Below are positions 41,013 through 51,877 of a stretch of DNA of 64,000 nucleotides, one piece after another. Origin of the DNA: Cognatundibacterium jejuense (GTDB lineage: Bacteria; Pseudomonadota; Gammaproteobacteria; Burkholderiales; Burkholderiaceae_D); the NCBI RefSeq assembly GCF_014284255.1, contig NZ_JACOFV010000011.1:62001-126000 (forward strand), read 5' to 3'. The position numbers were made by a program, and so were the translations under genes. Below the pieces are notes generated by a model. That model saw nothing but the letters and a program-made list of their open reading frames with translations, had not been told where the DNA came from and made no database searches. Positions within the stretch are counted from its first letter, which is position 1. Each line of letters starts with the position of its first letter.

Positions 41013-41774
41013 TTATTGGATTTGCTTACTCTGTTTTAATCGCCGTTTCAGATTCGGTGCTAATGATAAAATAATGAGTGCGATCGACAACGGTACAGTG
41101 GAGATAAATCCCAGATGTTTAAACGCGGATGCGCCTAAGACTCCACCAATAAAAAACCAGACAACTAACAAGAGATGCAAGCGCAATTTATCCATATTTG
41201 CCGCCACTTCTGCCGATGGATGCAACTCATCTTTGTTTTTGTTCCAATATACCAATTTCCCTAGTTCTATCCCTATATCTGTAACTAATCCTGTGACATG
41301 TGTCGTCCGGATTTCTGCGTTAGAGATTTTGGTGATCAAGGCATTTTGCAATCCCATCGTGTAACACAGTAATACCGTGGTGAATGAAACGGTAATGACT
41401 TCGTGTTGTTGAAGTCTCGTGCCTACCAGTCCAAACATCAGCAGCAACGCTGCTTCAAGAAGCAATACTGGCGTGTAGATATAGCGCAGGTGATTGCGTT
41501 TGGCGAAATTCACAATTAATGCAGTACATGCGGCACCAGTCGCAAAACTTAGTAATGAAAACATGGCCGCTATCGCTGGCAATATTCTTCCTAATACCAA
41601 ATCATCTGTCGCTGCTGCCAACATACCTGTCATATGTGAAGTGTATTGACCAACCGCTAAAAATCCACCGGCATTGAGAGCGCCGGCAATCGCGGCAAGG
41701 CTGACACCCAGATGTAGGTTTGTTCGCGCAGAGCGCTTTGGAGAAGTCAGTGCAGACAGGTAGTTGATAGGCAT
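41013..41774 (-). CDS. YoaK family (DUF1275) membrane protein
   Basis: A 253-residue protein with about six membrane helices, characteristic of YoaK/DUF1275: LGVSLAAIAGALNAGGFLAV, GQYTSHMTGMLAAATDDLVL, the TAFIxGLLxFxxG-like stretch FSLLSFATGAACTALIVNFA, and MGLQNALITKISNAEIRTTH then VTGLVTDIGIELGK. The function is unknown; some relatives may transport small compounds. The start ATG 41774 gives a short polar leader. It is transcribed away from the TonB receptor region. Confidence 0.88.
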   Translation of the reverse strand: MPINYLSALTSPKRSARTNLHLGVSLAAIAGALNAGGFLAVGQYTSHMTGMLAAATDDLVLGRILPAIAAMFSLLSFATGAACTALIVNFAKRNHLRYIYTPVLLLEAALLLMFGLVGTRLQQHEVITVSFTTVLLCYTMGLQNALITKISNAEIRTTHVTGLVTDIGIELGKLVYWNKNKDELHPSAEVAANMDKLRLHLLLVVWFFIGGVLGASAFKHLGFISTVPLSIALIILSLAPNLKRRLKQSKQIQ

Positions 41775-42012
41775 AACGGTGCGCGCATTTTTACGAGTCG
41801 GAATTCAAGTGTAGTCGAGATCTTGCCGCAATTGTGCAGTGAAATAATCCGCTTGCTCATAGTGTCTTTGATTTTCGTCAGTGAATTAAGCTTTTCTGGC
41901 TCATTGCAAACCCAAACCCCGAAAAACAGGAGCTCCACGCCTTTTATGAATCCCTACTATCCCTACTTTTGCGTGCAGTTCTTTACTGTTTTGTATTGCC
42001 AAATAACGTCTT

Positions 42013-42029
42013 AATACCACTTAGATATG
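42013..42029 (+). promoter_or_regulatory. operator-like site A
   Basis: AATACCACTTAGATATG; it matches the shared operator AATRCCACKTARRTRCC except at the final bases. Possibly an auxiliary site of the GntR regulon, 370 bases before site B. Confidence 0.4.
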
Positions 42030-42400
42030 TTTTCTTAATTTTATTCGAAAAAAAATGTTCTCTGATGGAAAGTTTCTGGTTCTGAGGTTGCCGGTTCTTT
42101 TACTTTTTTATCTCCGTGTATAAAAAATCCTAGTAATTTTTAACGACAATCTTTCCTGGGAAGTTACTGTCAATTCAGGCGCCAATTTACTGGAAGTTTT
42201 GATTTTAAATGGTCGTAAAAATATAGTGTTACTTCATGTGAATCTGATATGCATTAAGTAAATATCTATATGTCATTGTTGGAAAAACTAAACAGACCAC
42301 TTTATCTTGGTATTTAAAATAAATTAAATATAGTTGTTTAAAAACAGGTGCTTACATCCAATTATTGATCAATATAATTAATACCAATGTCGCTCATGTT

Positions 42401-42448
42401 AATACCACGTAGATACCGCTTGACAACCACTTTTGCCGTCCTTAAAGT
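42401..42448 (+). promoter_or_regulatory. operator B and promoter of the TonB-dependent receptor
   Basis: The operator AATACCACGTAGATACC (42401-42417) is followed by a -35 TTGACA (42420-42425) and a -10 TAAAGT (42443-42448) at 17-bp spacing. The block up to ACCACT is 27/31 identical to the one before nagK (46497), with the same 19-base offset from operator to -35. A repressor bound here would block RNA polymerase. Confidence 0.7.
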
Positions 42449-42803
42449 GAGACTCATTCGAAGTTTTTGTCTGATTTTCACTCGCAATATCCAGGTTTGA
42501 AATCGACAATTCCGGATGCAAATGGGTGGTGTAATTGCCGAAAACTCTTTTTAAATTGAGGTGAATTTTGCGGTTTGGCTCAATAATTTATTTGTAAAAA
42601 AATAATTTTAAAATGATTTTTGGGACGAAGTTATAAGGCAATTTTACAAAACAAGAATATTGCCTCCTTTATTTGTAGTGGCATCTAAGTGGATTTTTTT
42701 TGTTGTAAAAAGTTGGTGTTTTTGTGTCGGTGGGGACTTGGCTTTTCATTAAATTGAAGTACTTTAGCTAAAAAATTGTTTAAAAAAATCCTTGGGGGAG
42801 TAA

Positions 42804-45455
42804 ATGAAACATAATTCAACATCTGGTTTGACACCTATTGCTTCGGCAGTGGCGCTGCTGGTTCTGAGTGCAACGATGTCAGCGCAAGCACAGCAGGCGC
42901 AGCAGCCTGCTGCACAAGAGGTCGTTGTAACGGGCATCCGTGCATCGATGCAAAATGCAGTAAATATTAAGAGAAATTCAAATTCTGTCGTTGACGCCGT
43001 CTCTGCAGAAGACATCGGTAAGATGCCAGATACCGACGTTGGTGAATCCTTGGGACGTGTTCCAGGCGTTTCTGTTGGCCGTGCTTTTGGTCAAGGTGCA
43101 TCTGTTTCTGTGCGCGGCTCTGATCCACAAATGACATACACGACATTGAATGGTCAGACGATTGCTTCTACTGGTTGGTATGACCAGCAATCTATCGATC
43201 GTTCATTTAACTACTCCTTGTTGCCTTCAGAGTTGATTGGTGGCATAGAAGTGTACAAATCCTCTCAGGCAGATCTGACTGAAGGTGGTATTGGTGGTAC
43301 GGTGATTGTTAAAACCCGTAAGCCATTGGATATGCCATCTGGTTCTGCATTTATCGGCGCGAAAATCGGTAAAGGCACTGTCAGCACTGAGTTGGATAAA
43401 GATGTGTCTGGTCTTTATAGCTGGAAGAATGAAGCCAATACATTTGGTGTGTTAGTTGGTGGTGCGGTCGAAAATGGTGAATATATTCGCCGTGGTATTG
43501 AGTCTGATTCACGCTGGTCTGGTGACGTTGCGCCAACGACCTTCGTGCAAGAGCGTAAGCGTCAAGCGTTTAACTTGAACCTGCAAGCTCGTCCAACCAA
43601 AGATCTGGATCTTGGTTTGAATTACTTAAAACTGAAATTGACTGGTGATAACTCGAACACGAGTCAGTACGTTTTCCAAAACACTTACGATCCTGCAGCG
43701 AAAACAGGATTCAATAACTGTACATCTTTGAATGCTGCTGGTGTATGTACAAGCAGTACAACAACGGCTGCAACTGCAAACAATGCATTCTTGCAGACTT
43801 GGGCGCGTACTGCAGAAATGACGTCTGATAGTTTGAATCTGAATGGTACGTACAAGGGTAACGGCTTTAAACTGGATGCGGTTGCTGGTTCTACCAAGGC
43901 AGACGGTGGTACTTCTGAAACAACTAACTACGCTTACTATTCAGGTGATGCGACTGGTCCAAATCTGCCAAAATGGACGGGTAATATCAATGCTACAGGT
44001 AAGCAAATTATTATGACACCAAGTTCGCCTCAGGACGTTACTTTGGCGAATTTGCCTGGAAGTATCGGCCCTTCAGGTTCATGGGCAACGTCTAAAGGTC
44101 CTAACACCGACAAAGAAAATTATGCGCAAGCTGATTTGTTGCTGAACCTGGACTGGGCTAGTGGTATTTCTTCCTTCAAAACTGGCTTCCGCGTCTCGGA
44201 TCACACGTTTGAAAAGAGTTCTTACCGTGCTAATTTTGCTGCGACTACCATCAACGCCCCAACTGCAAGTTTGTACAGCGGCACGATTGCGATGGGTCCA
44301 AATGGTTGGTCAAATCCAAAACCAAATATTGATGCAATGATGGCTAACACCAATCAAAACATCACTGGCTGGACTTATGATCGTAGCGGTTACGGCAAAC
44401 TTGAAGAAAAAAATACCGCAATCTACGGTATGTTTAACTTCGAAAAAGAACAGTGGCATGGTAACTTTGGCGCTCGTTATATTAGTACTGATGCTACTGG
44501 GACCGGATATGCGTTTAACGGCACGCCATTGGCTGCTGGTGACATTGGCAATAACAATGGCTGGAGTAATAGTCTGACTAGTCAGACGGCAAAATACAAC
44601 GACGTATTGCCAAGTCTGAATATTGCTTATGACCTCAACAAAAACACGATTTTGCGCTTAGCAGCTTCTCAGGCAGTTACTCGTCCAAATTTTGATAATA
44701 TGTTCCTGGCGACAGAAACTGGTTATCAGGATAAAACGGCCGGTAATGAAACAATTACTTACGGTAGTGTAGCTCTGAAGCCAATGAAGTCCACACAGTT
44801 GGATCTCAGTGTTGAGTACTATTATGGTAAGGGTAACCTGTTGTCTCTGACTTACTTCCACAAAGACATCAATAACTTCATCACTACGCAGACTGCTGTT
44901 AATCAAAGTATTGGTGTGGTTAGTCCAGATAGCGGAAAAGATAGCTGGACAGTGAATCGCTACGTCAATGCTGGCGGCGGTAAAATTGATGGTTTGGAAG
45001 CGCAAATCAATCATTCATTTGATAATGGTTTCGGTGTTGTTGCCAACTACACGCTGGCAAACGCCACTGCACCAGCAACTAGCTACCAGGATCAGTTGAA
45101 CGTATTTACGCAGTCTTCCAAGCACAATGTGAACTTGCTCGGTTACTGGGAAAGCCCACAGTACTTTGCTCGTGCTGCCTACAACTGGCGTTCTGAATAC
45201 ATGCTGCGTGAAACTGGTTGGTACGGTAACCGTATGCATGATTCTTATGGCACATTGGATGCAAGTATTGGTTGGAATGTTACTGACAAAATTCGCTTGA
45301 CGTTGGAAGCAACAAACTTGCTGAAAGCAGACGATGTTCAATATGGTACGGCATCAACCACGACTACAGTAAAAGTGCCTTTGCAAGCTGGCTATCCAGC
45401 GTGGTCATTCAAGGGAGAAACAACTTATCGTCTGAGTGTCAGCGCTAAGTTCTGA
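42804..45455 (+). CDS. TonB-dependent receptor, amino-sugar/oligosaccharide type
   Basis: The 883-residue outer-membrane receptor imports a large ligand using TonB energy. A signal peptide (residues ~1-29) is followed by a TonB-box/plug start EVVVTGIRASMQNAVNIKRN, SNSVVDAVSAEDIGKMPDTD and VGESLGRVPGVSVGR, typical of Xanthomonas/Caulobacter carbohydrate receptors. The barrel fills residues ~170-883 and ends in aromatic RLSVSAKF. The GlcNAc catabolic genes start ~1.1 kb downstream with a matching operator, so chitin oligosaccharides or GlcNAc-containing fragments are likely ligands. It ends with a strong terminator. Confidence 0.93.
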   Translation: MKHNSTSGLTPIASAVALLVLSATMSAQAQQAQQPAAQEVVVTGIRASMQNAVNIKRNSNSVVDAVSAEDIGKMPDTDVGESLGRVPGVSVGRAFGQGASVSVRGSDPQMTYTTLNGQTIASTGWYDQQSIDRSFNYSLLPSELIGGIEVYKSSQADLTEGGIGGTVIVKTRKPLDMPSGSAFIGAKIGKGTVSTELDKDVSGLYSWKNEANTFGVLVGGAVENGEYIRRGIESDSRWSGDVAPTTFVQERKRQAFNLNLQARPTKDLDLGLNYLKLKLTGDNSNTSQYVFQNTYDPAAKTGFNNCTSLNAAGVCTSSTTTAATANNAFLQTWARTAEMTSDSLNLNGTYKGNGFKLDAVAGSTKADGGTSETTNYAYYSGDATGPNLPKWTGNINATGKQIIMTPSSPQDVTLANLPGSIGPSGSWATSKGPNTDKENYAQADLLLNLDWASGISSFKTGFRVSDHTFEKSSYRANFAATTINAPTASLYSGTIAMGPNGWSNPKPNIDAMMANTNQNITGWTYDRSGYGKLEEKNTAIYGMFNFEKEQWHGNFGARYISTDATGTGYAFNGTPLAAGDIGNNNGWSNSLTSQTAKYNDVLPSLNIAYDLNKNTILRLAASQAVTRPNFDNMFLATETGYQDKTAGNETITYGSVALKPMKSTQLDLSVEYYYGKGNLLSLTYFHKDINNFITTQTAVNQSIGVVSPDSGKDSWTVNRYVNAGGGKIDGLEAQINHSFDNGFGVVANYTLANATAPATSYQDQLNVFTQSSKHNVNLLGYWESPQYFARAAYNWRSEYMLRETGWYGNRMHDSYGTLDASIGWNVTDKIRLTLEATNLLKADDVQYGTASTTTTVKVPLQAGYPAWSFKGETTYRLSVSAKF

Positions 45456-45471
45456 TGTAAGTTTGATGTAT

Positions 45472-45503
45472 AAAAAAGCCCGGTTTATGCCGGGCTTTTT
45501 TTG
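45472..45503 (+). terminator. terminator after the TonB receptor
   Basis: GCCCGG-tttatg-CCGGGC hairpin flanked by A6 and T7, 17 bases after the stop. Confidence 0.92.
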
Positions 45504-45665
45504 AAACTCATGCCAGATTGATGCATGGATTGTCAAAATATAGTCCCTCCTTTAGTCTGTGATTTTTATGTACGACTGTGTTGATCACTGCGCAAATACG
45601 GTGCCAGTGGATCCCTCACATAATGAAGAAATACCGATATTTTCAGATACCTCATCGACGATTAT

Positions 45666-46373
45666 ATGGACACTCGTTTTGAAATTAGTATGCCGCCCGT
45701 CATTGAGTCAGTGAAGATAGGCGAGCATTATGCCTTGATCATCGATAATTTTTTGCAGGATCCGAAGGCTTTAAAAGAAATTGCCATACAAAGTCAGTTT
45801 GAACCTTATCCTGGAGTGCGGGACGGTAAAGGATATCCTGGCGTGCGCGCTAAAGCACCAGAGCAGTATTCGTTCAACCTGACCGAATTACTAGAACCAG
45901 TTATTAAAACAAATTTTGATGTGCCAGAGCTATTGGCTATACGCAAAAGTATCTGCATGTTTTCGTTGACGACCACACCAGCAAACGAGTTGGGTCCCTT
46001 GCAATGCACGCCACATTTTGATGCTAGTACACCAAATCATATGGCAGTGTTACTTTATCTTTGCGATCAGCAGCATGGAGGGACTGGTTTCTATCGGCAT
46101 AAGAAGACTGGTCTGCAGCAAATTACTGCTGGCAATCGAGAAAGCTACCTTGACATTTATTACGAAGAAATTAATGCGGAACGACCACAGCAAAGATATT
46201 TTGATGAATCGAACTCTCAGTTTACTTTTCTGGGAATGATCCCAGCAAAATTTAACCGGCTGGTGGTTTATCGCGGCAGCTTACTGCATTCTGCGTGCAT
46301 CAATCCGGCAATTAGTATCAATGCGAATCCAGATTCTGGACGTCTGACGGTGAATACCTTTTACGATTTCTGA
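45666..46373 (+). CDS. DUF6445-like protein with 2OG-Fe(II) oxygenase-type motifs
   Basis: A 235-residue protein matching the DUF6445 pattern often found beside TonB-dependent receptors: LIIDNFLQDPKALKEIAIQS, QFEPYPGVRDGKGYPGVRA, CTPHFDASTPNHMAVLLYL and RLVVYRGSLLHSACINPA, then SGRLTVNTFYDF. H-x-D (PHFD), a later His (LLHS) and an Arg (SGRLT) are arranged as in 2-oxoglutarate/Fe(II) dioxygenase folds. The enzymatic role is inference. It follows the receptor and its terminator, so it has its own promoter. In related genomes such genes flank carbohydrate receptors; the function is unproven. Confidence 0.7.
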   Translation: MDTRFEISMPPVIESVKIGEHYALIIDNFLQDPKALKEIAIQSQFEPYPGVRDGKGYPGVRAKAPEQYSFNLTELLEPVIKTNFDVPELLAIRKSICMFSLTTTPANELGPLQCTPHFDASTPNHMAVLLYLCDQQHGGTGFYRHKKTGLQQITAGNRESYLDIYYEEINAERPQQRYFDESNSQFTFLGMIPAKFNRLVVYRGSLLHSACINPAISINANPDSGRLTVNTFYDF

Positions 46374-46496
46374 TGATAAACGGCTCTGGTTTGATTGGAA
46401 AGTGGTTGGAGAAATGCGATGCGTTAAACAGTGTTTTTGTTTAATTGGGACATACAAAAAACAAAGAGGTATTTGAGCTTAGTATTATTTCGATAC

Positions 46497-46545
46497 AATA
46501 CCACTTAAATACCTATTGACAACCACTATAAAAAAACTTTACAGT
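46497..46545 (+). promoter_or_regulatory. operator C and promoter of the nagK operon
   Basis: Operator AATACCACTTAAATACC (46497-46513), then TTGACA (46516-46521) and TACAGT (46540-46545) at 18-bp spacing. Together with the following ACCACT it mirrors the receptor promoter. The likely start of transcription is near 46552, inside a second shared word (TGAAGTACTTTAG, 46545-46557). Confidence 0.72.
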
Positions 46546-46617
46546 GAAGTACTTTAGTTTAACAGAACTTCAAACCTACATTGCGTTTCGGAAAATTTGC
46601 TCGCTATAAATATATCA

Positions 46618-47562
46618 ATGAATAATTTACACACACCGCAGGCAACTCTGGAAACATCGAACCAGACTAAGAGCGTTGAACAAGCACGCGAGATATGCTA
46701 TCTGATTGGTGTCGATGGTGGCGGTACTGGCACGCGAGTGGTGTTAGCTGATGAAAGTGGTACTGAGTTGGCGCGCGGTGCTGGCGGACCATCTGGTCTG
46801 GTGCATGGGCGGCAAAAAGCGTGGGATTCTATCCTGGTCGCCATCCGTCAAGCATTTCAAGATACCAACCTGGCGATGCCGGAATTATCTGCAATCGCCA
46901 TCGGTTGCGGCTTGGCTGGTGTGAATAATGTTCAATGGGCTGCTGAGTTTATCGCGCTCAATCCTGGTTTCGCCTTACTCCAGGCGGAAACAGATGCTTA
47001 TACCACTTTGCTCGGCGCACATCTTGGACAACCAGGTGTGGTTATTGCATTGGGGACGGGTAGTGTTGGTGAAGTGCTGCAAGCGGATGGTCAGCGGCGC
47101 GAGGTTGGTGGTTGGGGTTTTCCTGTCAGTGATGAGGCAAGTGGTGCATGGTTGGGCTTGCATGCAGTCAATCACTTGCAACGTACGCTCGATGGCCGTG
47201 CTCTTGCGAATCCATTTTCGGCTGCGGTATTAGCGCATTGTGGTGGCAATAAAGATGCCGTTTTTGCGTGGCTCGCCAGTGCTAACCAAACCCGCTATGC
47301 CGAATTGGCGCCTATCGTAATTCGTTGTGCCACAGAAGTAGATGTGGCGCGTAACATCATGCTGGCCGCAGGTCGCGAGGTGCAAGCAATGGCGCATGCA
47401 CTTGACGCTAGCGGACAATTGCCGATCGCCTTGTGTGGTGGTCTGGCCGCGGTGATGGCGCATTATTTACCATTGGAATTGCAACAAAGAGCGCAAAAAC
47501 CGCAGGGAGATTCAGCGAGCGGTGCTTTGATTTTGATTCAACATTATCTGCAAAAAATATAA
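46618..47562 (+). CDS. nagK: N-acetylglucosamine kinase (BadF/BadG/BcrA ATPase family)
   Basis: A ~314-residue sugar kinase that would phosphorylate cytoplasmic GlcNAc to GlcNAc-6-P. Motifs: phosphate-1 LIGVDGGGTGTRVVLADESG; GCGLAGVNN; the adenosine-side ALGTGSVGEVLQADG; EVGGWGFPVSDEASGAWLGL; LCGGLAAVMAHYLP at the C-terminus. ATG 46618 and TTG 46597 are both possible starts (GGAAAA precedes the TTG); I take the ATG. It is the first gene of the operon nagK-gntR-nagA-deaminase and carries operator C upstream. Without a PTS this kinase is the entry step to catabolism. Confidence 0.87.
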   Translation: MNNLHTPQATLETSNQTKSVEQAREICYLIGVDGGGTGTRVVLADESGTELARGAGGPSGLVHGRQKAWDSILVAIRQAFQDTNLAMPELSAIAIGCGLAGVNNVQWAAEFIALNPGFALLQAETDAYTTLLGAHLGQPGVVIALGTGSVGEVLQADGQRREVGGWGFPVSDEASGAWLGLHAVNHLQRTLDGRALANPFSAAVLAHCGGNKDAVFAWLASANQTRYAELAPIVIRCATEVDVARNIMLAAGREVQAMAHALDASGQLPIALCGGLAAVMAHYLPLELQQRAQKPQGDSASGALILIQHYLQKI

Positions 47563-47577
47563 CAAGAGAGACAAAAA

Positions 47578-48312
47578 ATGCTGACACAACTGGATGATTT
47601 TAAACCTGATAACGAGAGCTCTACGCCGCTCTATTTGCAATTGGCAAATAAGCTGGCGAACGGCATCCATAGCGGACAGTGGCAGCCTGACGAGGCACTG
47701 CCATCAGAGCGTATGCTGTCCGAGGTTTTGCAGATTTCCCGCGTCACCGCGCGTAAAGCCATTGATATGTTATGTGAGCGTGGTTTGTTGACCCGCAAAC
47801 ATGGCTCTGGCACTTACATTACGCCGAAGTTGGAGCAACCTTTATCCCGTCTGACCAACTTTAGTGAAGAGTTGCGTCAGCGCGGTTTTGTGCCTGGATC
47901 GCGCTGGATTTCCCGTGAAACTGGCATTGCATCGCCAGAAGAAATTTTATCTCTGGGCTTGTCGCCAAATACCGTTGTATCTCGTCTGAAGCGTTTGCGT
48001 ACCGCAGATAACGTGGTGATGGCGATTGAAAGCACCACCGTACCAGCGATGTATATGCCAAACCCAAAATTGGTCACAGATAGTTTGTACGGCTATTTGG
48101 AATCACACAATGTCGCGCCGACCCGTGCGTTGCAACATATTCGCGCGGTGAATGCGACACCAGAGCAAGCCCGATTGGCAGATATCAAACAAGGTGCTGC
48201 CATGTTGTTCATTACCCGCGTTGGTTACTTACCAAATGGCACCGCCATTGAGCTTTCGCATTCATATTGCCGTAGCGATTACTACGACTTCGTGGCGGAG
48301 TTGTTCAGATGA
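47578..48312 (+). CDS. GntR/UTRA family regulator (NagR/NagQ/DasR-like)
   Basis: The 244-residue regulator has an N-terminal winged helix-turn-helix (PLYLQLANKLANGIHSGQWQ, LPSERMLSEVLQISRVTARK, then LCERGLLTRKHGSGTYI), and a C-terminal UTRA effector domain (ESTTVPAMYMPNPK, YGYLESHNVAPTRALQHIRA). UTRA proteins of this class bind GlcNAc-6-P or GlcN-6-P. It is encoded within the amino-sugar operon, 15 bases after nagK, and its stop overlaps nagA (ATGA). It is the natural candidate for binding the AATRCCACKTARRTRCC operators; binding is inferred. Confidence 0.9.
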   Translation: MLTQLDDFKPDNESSTPLYLQLANKLANGIHSGQWQPDEALPSERMLSEVLQISRVTARKAIDMLCERGLLTRKHGSGTYITPKLEQPLSRLTNFSEELRQRGFVPGSRWISRETGIASPEEILSLGLSPNTVVSRLKRLRTADNVVMAIESTTVPAMYMPNPKLVTDSLYGYLESHNVAPTRALQHIRAVNATPEQARLADIKQGAAMLFITRVGYLPNGTAIELSHSYCRSDYYDFVAELFR

Positions 48313-49421
48313 GTGTGAATCAACAATTGCTAGGAAAAATACTCACCCCGGAAGGCTGGGTAAAGGGTGAAATTCAGTTTTCAGAAAAGATTGAAAGCAT
48401 CGAGGCGAGTGATTTTTCTGCTGAACCAGAGTATTTTATTTTGCCTGGGTTTGTGGATTTGCATGTACACGGTGCAGGCGGCAAAGACACCATGGAAGCC
48501 GGAGACGCAGTGCAAGTGATTGCACGTCAACATGCTAAACATGGGACGACCAGTTTGCTGGCGACCACCATGACCGCGCCAATGGCCGATATTGAAGCGG
48601 CACTGCGTGCGATACAGCCTGTGATCGAGCAAAGACCTGCTGGCGCAGCAAGAGTGCTTGGCGTGCATCTGGAAGGGCCTTACATTAATCCGGGTAAGCT
48701 TGGTGCGCAGCCCGATTTTGCTGATATTGGTTCGCTCGCACAAGTAAAACATCTGGATGCGATTGCGCCGATTAAACTCATCACCGTTGCACCTGAGATG
48801 GAAGGGCATTTGCAACTGGTCAGCGAATTGTGTGCGATGGGTATGCAGGTGCAAATTGGTCATACTCTAGGCACGTATGAAGATGGTGTCGCTGCTTTGC
48901 AAAATGGTGCTAAGGGCTTTACTCATTTGTACAACGCGATGTCGCGTCTTGATCATCGCGCACCGGGTATGGTTGGTGCAGCTTTAGCGCATGCCGAGTT
49001 TTCGGAAATTATTCCTGATTTATTACACGTACATCCTGGTGCAATTAAAGCCGCAATGCGGGCTATTCCTCATTTGTTTTGCGTGACTGATTCTACGGCT
49101 GCTTCTGGTATGCCTGATGGGCAATATATGCTCGGTCGTCAGGTGGTGCATAAATGTTTGGGCGGTGTGCGCCTCGAAGATGGCACGTTGGCAGGTAGCA
49201 CCCTGACCATGGATCAGGCTTTGCGCAATTTGGTCAGTATCGGACTTGATTTGGAAGATGCTTCCAAACGGGTTTCTACTTACGCCGCTGATTACCTCGG
49301 ATTATCTGAACGTGGCCGTTTGAAAACGGGCGCGTTTGCCGACCTCGTTGTGCTGGATCGTCAGCTCAACCTCATTGCTGTGTATGTAGAAGGAGAAAAG
49401 ATTGACCTCGCAAATGCTTAA
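48309..49421 (+). CDS. nagA: N-acetylglucosamine-6-phosphate deacetylase
   Basis: The 370-residue metal enzyme converts GlcNAc-6-P to GlcN-6-P and acetate. Motifs: LPGFVDLHVHGAGGKDTMEA (HxH, His 52 and 54), GVHLEGPYINPGKLGAQ (metal Glu), VQIGHTLGTYEDG (His), FTHLYNAMSRLDHRAPGMVG and the catalytic-Asp segment VTDSTAASGMPDGQY. Length and motifs are complete. It is translationally coupled to the regulator (ATGA at 48309) and overlaps the deaminase gene start. Confidence 0.97.
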   Translation: MSVNQQLLGKILTPEGWVKGEIQFSEKIESIEASDFSAEPEYFILPGFVDLHVHGAGGKDTMEAGDAVQVIARQHAKHGTTSLLATTMTAPMADIEAALRAIQPVIEQRPAGAARVLGVHLEGPYINPGKLGAQPDFADIGSLAQVKHLDAIAPIKLITVAPEMEGHLQLVSELCAMGMQVQIGHTLGTYEDGVAALQNGAKGFTHLYNAMSRLDHRAPGMVGAALAHAEFSEIIPDLLHVHPGAIKAAMRAIPHLFCVTDSTAASGMPDGQYMLGRQVVHKCLGGVRLEDGTLAGSTLTMDQALRNLVSIGLDLEDASKRVSTYAADYLGLSERGRLKTGAFADLVVLDRQLNLIAVYVEGEKIDLANA

Positions 49422-50424
49422 AGAAGCCTGTTCTTCCGCAGAACGTGTCGCTTATCAATTAACCCAGGATCGTGAACGCTATGTTGAGCTTGGTGCTCAT
49501 CTGCGCGCCAAGCCGCCGACTTCAGTCGTGACTGTTGCGCGCGGTAGTTCTGACCATGCAGCGAATTATGCAGCGTATCTGATCATGCAAAGACTGGGAC
49601 GCATCGTCGCATCCTTACCGATGTCTTTGGTCACTTTAAACAAAGCACCATTGCTGGCAAAAGATGCATTGGCAATTGCTATTTCCCAATCTGGTCAGAG
49701 CCCTGACGTGGTAGAGCCTATCTCCTATTTCAGTCAGGGTGGCGCCACCACGGTAGCACTCGTGAATGACGCAAGCTCGCCTTTAGCCCAAGCAGCACAA
49801 TGGACTATGCCTTTGCATGCCGGTCCAGAATTGAGTGTTGCTGCCACCAAGAGTTTTATCACTTCGTTGGTCGCTGGTGCTCGTCTCGCAGGTCATTGGC
49901 AAAACGACGCGGCATTTTTAGATGCGATCGAACAGTTGCCTGAAGCGCTGACAGCAGCGACTCAATTAGATTGGTCACCTGCATTAGAAGTGCTGACGCC
50001 AGCACAACGCATTATGGTGGTGGGGCGTGGTATCAGTTTCCCGGTTGCATTGGAATCGGCATTGAAGTTTAAAGAAACCTCAGTCATTCAAGCAGAAGCA
50101 TTTAGTGGTGCAGAGATCAAGCATGGTCCTATGGCCTTGATTCATGATGGTTATCCTTTGTTGATCTTCGCAACGCGTGGGCCAGCACAAGATGGTTTGA
50201 TCAAGCTCGCCGAAGAAATGCGTGGCCGCGGTGCGAATGTATTGTTGGCAGCACCGGATAATATTAAAGAACGTAATCTTACTTTGCCTGTTGCAGCGAC
50301 TCCTGACCTTGATCCTATCGTGGCGATTCAGGCGTTTTATGTGATGGCGGCTCATTTGTCAGTGGCACGCGGACTTGATCCGGATAAGCCACGTCATCTG
50401 AGCAAAGTGACTAAAACCAACTAA
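49402..50424 (+). CDS. nagB-II: SIS-type glucosamine-6-phosphate deaminase (NagB-II)
   Basis: A 340-residue two-SIS-domain protein that would convert GlcN-6-P to fructose-6-P and ammonia; it is unrelated in sequence to classical NagB. Motifs: TVARGSSDHAANYAAYL, ISQSGQSPDVVEPISYF, SVAATKSFITSLVAG, GRGISFPVALESALKFKETS and VIQAEAFSGAEIKHGPMAL. The glutaminase domain of GlmS is absent. TTG 49402 is preferred as start: AGGAG at 49390-49394 lies 7 bases before it, but 19 bases before ATG 49414. The start lies within the end of nagA. Confidence 0.92.
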   Translation: MTSQMLKEACSSAERVAYQLTQDRERYVELGAHLRAKPPTSVVTVARGSSDHAANYAAYLIMQRLGRIVASLPMSLVTLNKAPLLAKDALAIAISQSGQSPDVVEPISYFSQGGATTVALVNDASSPLAQAAQWTMPLHAGPELSVAATKSFITSLVAGARLAGHWQNDAAFLDAIEQLPEALTAATQLDWSPALEVLTPAQRIMVVGRGISFPVALESALKFKETSVIQAEAFSGAEIKHGPMALIHDGYPLLIFATRGPAQDGLIKLAEEMRGRGANVLLAAPDNIKERNLTLPVAATPDLDPIVAIQAFYVMAAHLSVARGLDPDKPRHLSKVTKTN

Positions 50425-50524
50425 ACCCAAGTAAACCTGTTCAGGTTGGTGTGAAATTTTTTTAATGTATAAAAATATACTCCCTCTCAGTATTAAAAAA
50501 TATTCTAATAAAGGTATTGGTTAG

Positions 50525-51877
50525 ATGAACTATTTTTTAAAAAAATGGGGGAGTATATTTAATCTGCGTATTTCTAGCAAAATCCTTTCCTGTCGCAAGC
50601 GAGACGGCAGGCTTGTTTTCGCTCAGGTCATCTGCGCCTTTGTTTTGCTATTTTCTTTTCAGGCCTCCGCTTTTGCAGTTCAGAAAATCGAATTCTGGAC
50701 CATGAGTCTTAAGCCCAAATTTATTCCGTATTTTCATGATCTGGTGCGTGATTATGAGGCTACTCACCCCGGCGTTCAGATCGTCTGGGTGGATTTTCCG
50801 TGGGACATCTTGCAGCTCAAATTGATCACTGCCATTGCCGCAGGCAAACCGCCAGCACTGGTTAATCTCAGTGTGCCCTGGGCTGAGGAAATGGCACGCG
50901 ATGGCTTGCTGGAACCCTTGGATGCGTATTTAACTACGCCGGGGCAAGCGATACCCTACACCGATGCGGCATTAGCAGATTTGCGTTTTAATGGAAAAGT
51001 GTATGGCTTTCCCCATTACAGCAACGTTAATGTGATTGCCTATAATCGCCAACTATTGGCCGCAGCGGGAATCACGCAAGCGCCTCAAAATATGGATGAG
51101 CTGTTAGCACTGGCTGTCAAGGTGGCCGCCAAAACTGGCAAACCAGGCTATGCACCCGCTTTAGGTAAAATCGATGGATTCATGATGCAGCAAGGTCTGG
51201 ATTTGATCGTTAATGGCAAGGCGGTTTTTAATTCGCCAGCGCATGTTGCCTTAGTAAAAAAGCTGGCTGCCACCTACAAAGCGAATGGCTTTTTAAAAGA
51301 TAAGTTGTTCGCTGAAGATAATTTTCCTGCTGTTGTTGATGCTTATCTAGGGGGACGATTAGCGGTCATGGTGAGTGCTCCCACGGCGATCAAACGCATA
51401 CAAACTGATGCACCTGATATTTATGCCCAAACCGGCATTTTTCCTATGCCAGCAGGCCCCACAGGTATTAACGACGGTGGCTGGATGTTTCACTTCGCGA
51501 TTCCACAAGGTGTGAAGTCACAAGACATGCCAGCCGTCGCCGAATTTGCACGTTACCTGACCGGTGATCGCAGCCAACTTGCTTTTGCCCGATTAGCTGG
51601 CGTCATGCCAACCACGAAGCAAGCCTTAGCCAATCCGTATTTCAAACAATTGCCAGTCAATGCCGGCGCGGCGGAATTAGCATCTGCCGTGGCCGCAAAC
51701 TCGATGAATTCAGCACGTAGCTTATATGTTGCCGGCATCGATGATTATGATGAATTACGTCGTTTTCTGGTGAAAGCGGTTGAGGCTGGCGTTACCGGAA
51801 AAGCCGACATCCAGACTTCCCTCAATGAAGCCGTTGCGATCTGGAATAAGAAATTAGCCAAGGTACACAGGCCATGA
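50525..51877 (+). CDS. sugar ABC transporter substrate-binding protein (family 1)
   Basis: A 450-residue extracellular solute-binding protein family 1. It has a long N-terminal leader with the hydrophobic signal near residues 33-53 (AQVICAFVLLFSFQASAFA). The mature part shows KIEFWTMSLKPKFIPYFHDL, HPGVQIVWVDFPWDILQLKL, GFPHYSNVNVIAYNRQLLAA and LGGRLAVMVSAPTAI. It is the first gene of a transporter operon: its stop overlaps the permease start (ATGA). By context the ligand is GlcNAc, chitobiose or anhydromuropeptide-derived sugar. Confidence 0.9.
   Translation: MNYFLKKWGSIFNLRISSKILSCRKRDGRLVFAQVICAFVLLFSFQASAFAVQKIEFWTMSLKPKFIPYFHDLVRDYEATHPGVQIVWVDFPWDILQLKLITAIAAGKPPALVNLSVPWAEEMARDGLLEPLDAYLTTPGQAIPYTDAALADLRFNGKVYGFPHYSNVNVIAYNRQLLAAAGITQAPQNMDELLALAVKVAAKTGKPGYAPALGKIDGFMMQQGLDLIVNGKAVFNSPAHVALVKKLAATYKANGFLKDKLFAEDNFPAVVDAYLGGRLAVMVSAPTAIKRIQTDAPDIYAQTGIFPMPAGPTGINDGGWMFHFAIPQGVKSQDMPAVAEFARYLTGDRSQLAFARLAGVMPTTKQALANPYFKQLPVNAGAAELASAVAANSMNSARSLYVAGIDDYDELRRFLVKAVEAGVTGKADIQTSLNEAVAIWNKKLAKVHRP

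Follow-up and report, generated by a model that had tools for sequence, protein, structure and literature searches.

In Escherichia coli, a single repressor, NagC, controls both the uptake and the catabolism of N-acetylglucosamine (GlcNAc), with repression aided by looping between operators, and DasR-type relatives of the regulator considered here act as repressors. In the available excerpts of two published accounts, the sites of NagQ are direct repeats of TGGTATT (PMC4494728) that are arranged in tandem and found in alphaproteobacteria, betaproteobacteria and some gammaproteobacteria (PMC5343134), and nagK and the TonB receptors of Xanthomonas are assigned to a LacI-type NagR rather than to NagQ (PMC5343134). 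The excerpt of PMC4333415 describes NagR of Bacillus subtilis as a repressor that counts GlcNAc 6-phosphate (GlcNAc-6-P) among its bound effectors, contacts its operator through Arg38, Arg48 and Gly69, and recognizes dre sites, which are imperfect inverted repeats with half-sites six bases apart. Here we analysed a 64-kb stretch of the draft genome of Cognatundibacterium jejuense (the window; G000:C3:62001-126000, from 4.44 Mb in 87 contigs), in which a 31-base pair (bp) block lies at the promoter of a TonB-dependent receptor gene and again at that of an amino-sugar (nag) operon beginning with nagK. We consider it probable, with good confidence, that a NagQ-type repressor, the product of the second gene of the nag operon (47578-48312), uses this block as its operator. 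GlcNAc uptake across the outer membrane and GlcNAc breakdown are thus likely to be switched together.

An earlier note on this DNA, made from the letters alone, had reported that 42401-42431 and 46497-46527 are identical at 27 of 31 positions, and this is borne out, the differences falling at positions 9, 12, 18 and 19. It had also placed the operator 19 bases ahead of TTGACA in both promoters, which is true from start to start; the end of the 17-bp operator is 2 bp from TTGACA. The block pattern given in that note, at up to three mismatches, matches these two places only in the 64 kb and has no match in 100 dinucleotide shuffles. The block is therefore real, far beyond chance. The two blocks and their promoter elements are as follows (PWM, position weight matrix).

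42401..42431, + strand: main operator block of the receptor promoter, AATACCAC (42401), GATACCGC (42412), ACAACCACT (42423); from sequence, shuffles and a PWM score of 27.8
42420..42425, + strand: -35 hexamer TTGACA of the receptor promoter, between half-sites 2 and 3; from sequence, TTGAC being invariant in 37 distinct receptor promoters
42443..42448, + strand: -10 hexamer TAAAGT of the receptor promoter, after a 17-bp spacer; columns 43-48 read TA(A/C/G)AGT in 37/37 distinct receptor promoters
46497..46527, + strand: main operator block of the nagK promoter, AATACCAC (46497), AATACCTA (46508), ACAACCACT (46519); from sequence and a PWM score of 28.6
46516..46521, + strand: -35 hexamer TTGACA of the nagK promoter; from sequence and promoter alignment
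46540..46545, + strand: -10 hexamer TACAGT of the nagK promoter, after an 18-bp spacer; from sequence and alignment of relatives

Across the whole genome, the 17-bp core occurs at two places with no mismatch and at ten with two mismatches, and these 12 places in total are not above a reversed-pattern control (15). One of the ten is window 42013-42029, and the five others that were inspected (L003, L005-L008) all lie within reading frames. The genome pattern scan yielded no further full boxes beyond the two.

The block is conserved in close relatives, where the earlier note had proposed to look for it: AATACCACNTNNATACCNNTTGAC, at up to two mismatches, is present in 43/43 genomes of the genus set (which includes records named Undibacterium), at 96 places, against one place for the reversed control. 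We collected 95 of these boxes, leaving out G012:C1:406820 (two mismatches), and named the first frame downstream of each by blastp to the window proteins; leaders end at the first frame of at least 180 codons, and some true start codons may differ. That frame is nagK for 42 boxes (41 genomes), a TonB receptor for 42 (36 genomes) and something else for 11 (10 genomes). One of the 42 nagK boxes, in G032, lies 521 bp before the frame, upstream of the gene's nearer box. Over their aligned parts the receptors are 28-78% identical to the window protein; the box is therefore carried by several types of receptor. The 11 remaining targets comprise five TonB-like proteins (one cut short; that of G005 alone was checked against Pfam, the other four being named by likeness), one tryptophan halogenase followed by DUF6445, and five boxes without a frame in the stretch examined. 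The block thus stands before the same two kinds of gene genus-wide, which supports the idea, already put forward in the earlier note, that one repressor controls outer-membrane uptake and catabolism. A strict pattern that includes the -10 hexamer was found in 8/399 genomes of the order, all within the family, and in 1/398 of the phylum, the window's own; the order and phylum scans used this strict pattern only and set no bound on NagQ sites in general.

Other genes also stand under the box in relatives. In G005 (L048:10461-13543), a tonB-exbB-exbD-exbD cluster under its own box lies between the receptor region and a nagK that also has its own box, and is apparently an energy motor dedicated to amino-sugar uptake; the window's own genome has four matches to the G005 TonB protein, of which two are N-terminal fragments where contigs end, and no box was listed near any of them. 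In G024 (L081:2079-8551), a second NagQ-like regulator, 71% identical, adjoins two box-bearing units, a receptor gene and a tryptophan halogenase-DUF6445 pair.

The protein that binds the block is very probably a NagQ-type amino-sugar repressor, judging by homology and co-occurrence. The regulator of the nag operon consists of a GntR-type DNA-binding domain (PF00392, E 2.3e-17) and a UTRA effector domain (PF07702, E 2.2e-36); its closest solved protein is NagR/YvoA (E 4.5e-43), and its R45, R55 and G76 align with the operator-contacting Arg38, Arg48 and Gly69 of NagR. Among 89 family genomes (regulator at E<=1e-50, box at up to one mismatch), 28 have both box and regulator, one the box only, none the regulator only and 60 neither (Fisher 2.7e-22, relatedness ignored); by genus, the regulator is found in 13 and the box in 14 of the 44 in the family. 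The GntR/UTRA gene, which the earlier note had paired with the blocks, is accordingly supported as their partner by 28/29 co-occurrence, by agreement with the NagQ direct repeat and by its conserved base-contacting residues. The sole family genome with a box and no regulator, G812, has a single one-mismatch site. In the 43-genome Undibacterium set, the regulator went undetected at 1e-40 in two: G027, which is 73% complete, and G037. The DNA-binding domain is missing from the nagK-nagA interval of G037 (L131:6803-7006), which holds only pieces resembling residues 154-185 and 213-243; the one box of this genome, with a mismatch, precedes nagK, and none lies at a receptor. G037 would be a natural loss of the repressor, and the coincidence of a regulator remnant with a lone, mismatched box speaks for the pairing. 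The order nagK-regulator-nagA-SIS is kept in most of 40 genus loci, as judged by tblastn, which did not see the SIS gene at some of these loci (for example, L072, L079, L080 and L082).

In the mechanism that we propose, NagQ would grip half-sites (about ATACCACT) that follow one another head to tail every 11 bp; the first two lie immediately before the -35 hexamer and the third in the spacer between -35 and -10, so that the bound repressor would exclude RNA polymerase. GlcNAc-6-P, made after the sugar has entered, would release the repressor, whereupon outer-membrane uptake, phosphorylation and catabolism would rise jointly; NagQ would also limit its own synthesis. Repression at the receptor would probably be tightened by weaker operators 388 bp upstream and, inverted, 279 bp downstream, perhaps through looping of the DNA.

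The block can be read as three half-sites at a pitch of 11 bp, the -35 hexamer falling between the last two. Divided into units of 11 bp, the nagK block is AATACCACTTA / AATACCTATTG / ACAACCACTAT, and its -35 hexamer straddles the junction of the second unit with the third. Read on the minus strand, the two blocks give CGGTATC-N4-TGGTATT and AGGTATT-N4-TGGTATT. Over 40 distinct nagK promoters, information content is 1.66-2.00 bits in the five CCACT columns of the spacer, only 0.30-0.50 bits in column 26 and columns 34 and 39-42, and 1.34-1.38 bits in the A-rich columns 36 and 37, so that the remaining spacer is not entirely free. CCAC (at least three of four letters) stands at column 27 in 70/95 boxes, and no other offset in columns 25-46 exceeds 15. 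By target, this third half-site is direct in 41 nagK boxes and neither in one; direct in 20 receptor boxes, inverted in 14 and neither in 8; and direct in nine of the other boxes and neither in two. Outside the genus set, 50 loci (80 minus 30 that were Undibacterium or copies of genus genomes) contain 48 boxes, in which the third element is inverted (TGGT) in 33, direct in 14 and neither in one; four loci are boxless by the expression used. One genus member, G035 (L080:6979-7020, turned to the regulator's strand), has an extra 11-bp unit before nagK, making four half-sites in a row.

The receptor promoter of the window also has two candidate auxiliary operators at a distance.

42013..42029, + strand: candidate upstream auxiliary operator AATACCACTTAGATATG, 388 bp before the main box; third-best PWM match in 64 kb
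42680..42696, - strand: candidate downstream inverted auxiliary operator in the receptor leader, 279 bp after the main box; fourth-best PWM match in 64 kb

The matrix was built from 19 distinct 17-bp main-box cores, including the window's two and excluding auxiliary sites. On both strands of the 64 kb its top four places are 46497 (+), 42401 (+), 42013 (+) and 42680 (-), the third and fourth of which flank the receptor promoter. Across the genus, 19/42 receptor leaders have a downstream site of at least 6.9 bits, with 0.93 expected from shuffles; every one of these 19 lies on the minus strand at a distance of 230-280 bp from the box. Upstream sites of at least 7 bits occur at 14/41 receptor promoters (expected 1.25); twelve of these are plus-strand and two minus-strand sites. 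By contrast, nagK promoters have downstream sites in 2/42 cases (one being the nearer box of G032; expected 0.55) and upstream sites in 3/39 (one being the other box of G032; expected 0.48). Promoters with less than 200 bp of upstream sequence were left out of the upstream counts (hence n=41 for receptors and n=39 for nagK), shuffles numbered 100 per leader in the first scan and 40 for the final counts, the two thresholds were chosen after a first look at the sites, and relatedness among the genomes shrinks the effective numbers. Extra weak operators, far commoner at receptor than at nagK promoters, suggest looping. A downstream site accompanies 15/20 receptor boxes with a direct third half-site, 2/14 with an inverted one and 2/8 with neither, a link that we do not press because it may follow receptor lineage. 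The receptor leader (42431-42803) is long, with 403 bp from box to start codon here and 216-421 bp in the genus, and is hardly conserved outside the auxiliary site and the ribosome-binding region.

Could the blocks belong to another protein, the GntR gene of the operon controlling something else? G812, with its one-mismatch box and no regulator, and G037, with a box beside a regulator remnant, would fit such a view, to which we nevertheless attach scarcely any credence, as the box is present in 28/28 regulator-bearing family genomes and missing from 60/61 others, the published NagQ motif agrees and the base-contacting residues are conserved. The regulator might instead bind the block as an activator, or as activator and repressor both: the two upstream half-sites end 2 bp before the -35 hexamer, this distance to TTGACA is fixed, and a box just ahead of -35 could equally suit an activator. 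A conserved half-site in the -35/-10 spacer, however, suits occlusion, the -35 hexamer is a perfect consensus, and NagR and the DasR-type relatives repress, so we regard activation as very unlikely. Repression by the operon's own NagQ-type regulator is left with two general points to its disadvantage, namely that the genus genomes are related, so that counts overstate independence, and that the excerpt of PMC5343134 gives nagK and the TonB receptors of Xanthomonas to the LacI-type NagR.

The finer layout of that NagQ operator is held with less assurance. It is possible, and we put it forward tentatively, that NagQ occupies a row of three half-sites round the -35 hexamer, the last facing either way, and is looped at receptors to distant operators, one of them inverted, so that the receptor (in some relatives with its own TonB-ExbB-ExbD) would be switched more tightly than the catabolic operon. 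Several observations pull the other way: the downstream auxiliary site is lacking in 23/42 receptor leaders and the upstream one in 27/41, no downstream site accompanies the receptor boxes of three loci from beyond the genus set (L153, L165 and L172), and a clear third half-site is missing in 4/5 of the boxes that the order scan found in other genera of the family. The distal sites could accordingly be functionless remnants of older promoters, or chance, given that under half of the receptor leaders have the downstream one, related strains are counted repeatedly and the thresholds followed a first look; but shuffles predict only 0.93 downstream sites, the 19 observed share strand and distance, nagK promoters reach only 2/42, and the window's two sites rank third and fourth in 64 kb, making this rather unlikely. 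Similarly, the CCACT in the spacer might be promoter sequence inherited among strains related by descent rather than a half-site, a reading to which the information in nagK columns 36 and 37 and the 4/5 boxes lacking the element lend something. We judge it improbable, since nagK columns 34 and 39-42 have only 0.30-0.50 bits and since the element keeps its 11-bp phase while occurring in both orientations (inverted in 14/42 receptor boxes and, as TGGT, in 33/48 outside boxes).

A 13-bp word had also been proposed as shared by the two promoters. It is indeed exact at 42755-42767 and 46545-46557, but is not above chance and stands outside the system. Two matches at up to two mismatches arise in 30/100 shuffles, a third exact copy in the genome lies within a reading frame, and at up to one mismatch the word has four genomic places against 14 for a control. 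Its placement differs, at the end of the nagK -10 hexamer in one case and ~330 bp downstream of the receptor -35 in the other. Across the genus leaders scanned it is exact in those of its own genome only; the genus has 82 further leaders of nagK or receptor genes, and in the 80 that were scannable (two being too short) the best match has three mismatches (one case) or more. On the shuffles, the control, the genic third copy and the absence from relatives' leaders we rejected the word as a second operator; it is best taken as coincidence.

Around the blocks the genes run DUF1275 (- strand), TonB-dependent receptor, DUF6445, nagK, GntR/UTRA regulator, nagA and a NagB-II-like SIS protein; farther along are an ABC sugar transporter, a GH3 hexosaminidase, a transporter ATPase and a gene weakly resembling nagX.

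42804..45455, + strand: TonB-dependent receptor, TIGR01782 (Xanthomonas/Caulobacter type); Pfam and NCBIfam
46618..47562, + strand: nagK, N-acetylglucosamine kinase-like (BadF/BadG ATPase family); PF01869, with NF046058 below cut-off
47578..48312, + strand: GntR/UTRA regulator of NagQ type, putative binder of both blocks; PF00392, PF07702, likeness to NagR/YvoA, co-occurrence with the box
48309..49421, + strand: nagA, GlcNAc-6-phosphate deacetylase; TIGR00221 above cut-off
49414..50424, + strand: NagB-II-like glucosamine-6-phosphate deaminase, SIS domain; PF01380, best NCBIfam NF046059 below cut-off

At 45477-45502, directly 3' of the receptor gene, a G+C-rich hairpin with a T-run behind it can be made out by eye; it resembles a terminator, so that the receptor probably has a transcript of its own. 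The DUF6445 gene between receptor and nagK (45666-46373) has no box of its own; its G024 relative stands behind the tryptophan halogenase gene that bears a box. A search of 41700-51000 for RNA elements gave seven Rfam matches at E <=5, none at gathering score.

Taken together, these results outline a small, firm and testable Undibacterium regulon that would match the outer-membrane uptake of amino sugars to their breakdown. Its natural variants (the extra 11-bp unit of G035, third half-sites facing either way, receptor promoters with or without distal operators) provide a ready test set for how direct repeats are read by a GntR/HutC protein when its solved relative binds inverted ones.

The resemblance to NagC of E. 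coli is one of way of working only: NagC is a ROK-family protein with an unrelated operator, and the present system is not a member of its kind. The original Xanthomonas paper on NagQ reportedly describes a third TGGTATT, and the third half-site may be known already. With NagR/YvoA (PMC4333415) the regulator shares the base-contacting pair of arginines and the glycine, and the operator shares two adjacent guanines per half-site (the GG of GGTAT). The inverted-repeat dre operator of NagR and DasR is absent here: neither block has GG on the + strand, and the operator is thus a direct repeat. In common with the NagQ (GntR/HutC) regulon of the excerpts of PMC5343134 and PMC4494728, the regulator adjoins nag genes, nagA and the deaminase belong to the regulon, and both blocks, on the minus strand, consist of direct TGGTATT repeats with a 4-bp gap. 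Unlike the regulon in those excerpts, the one described here includes a TonB receptor and, in relatives, TonB-ExbB-ExbD as well; neither was found under NagQ in the literature searched, a search that did not extend to the original Xanthomonas paper. The same excerpts of PMC5343134 and PMC4494728 contain neither a third half-site nor distal operators in their accounts of NagQ. Control of nag genes by NagQ is known already, and it is the layout of the operator that is somewhat unusual.

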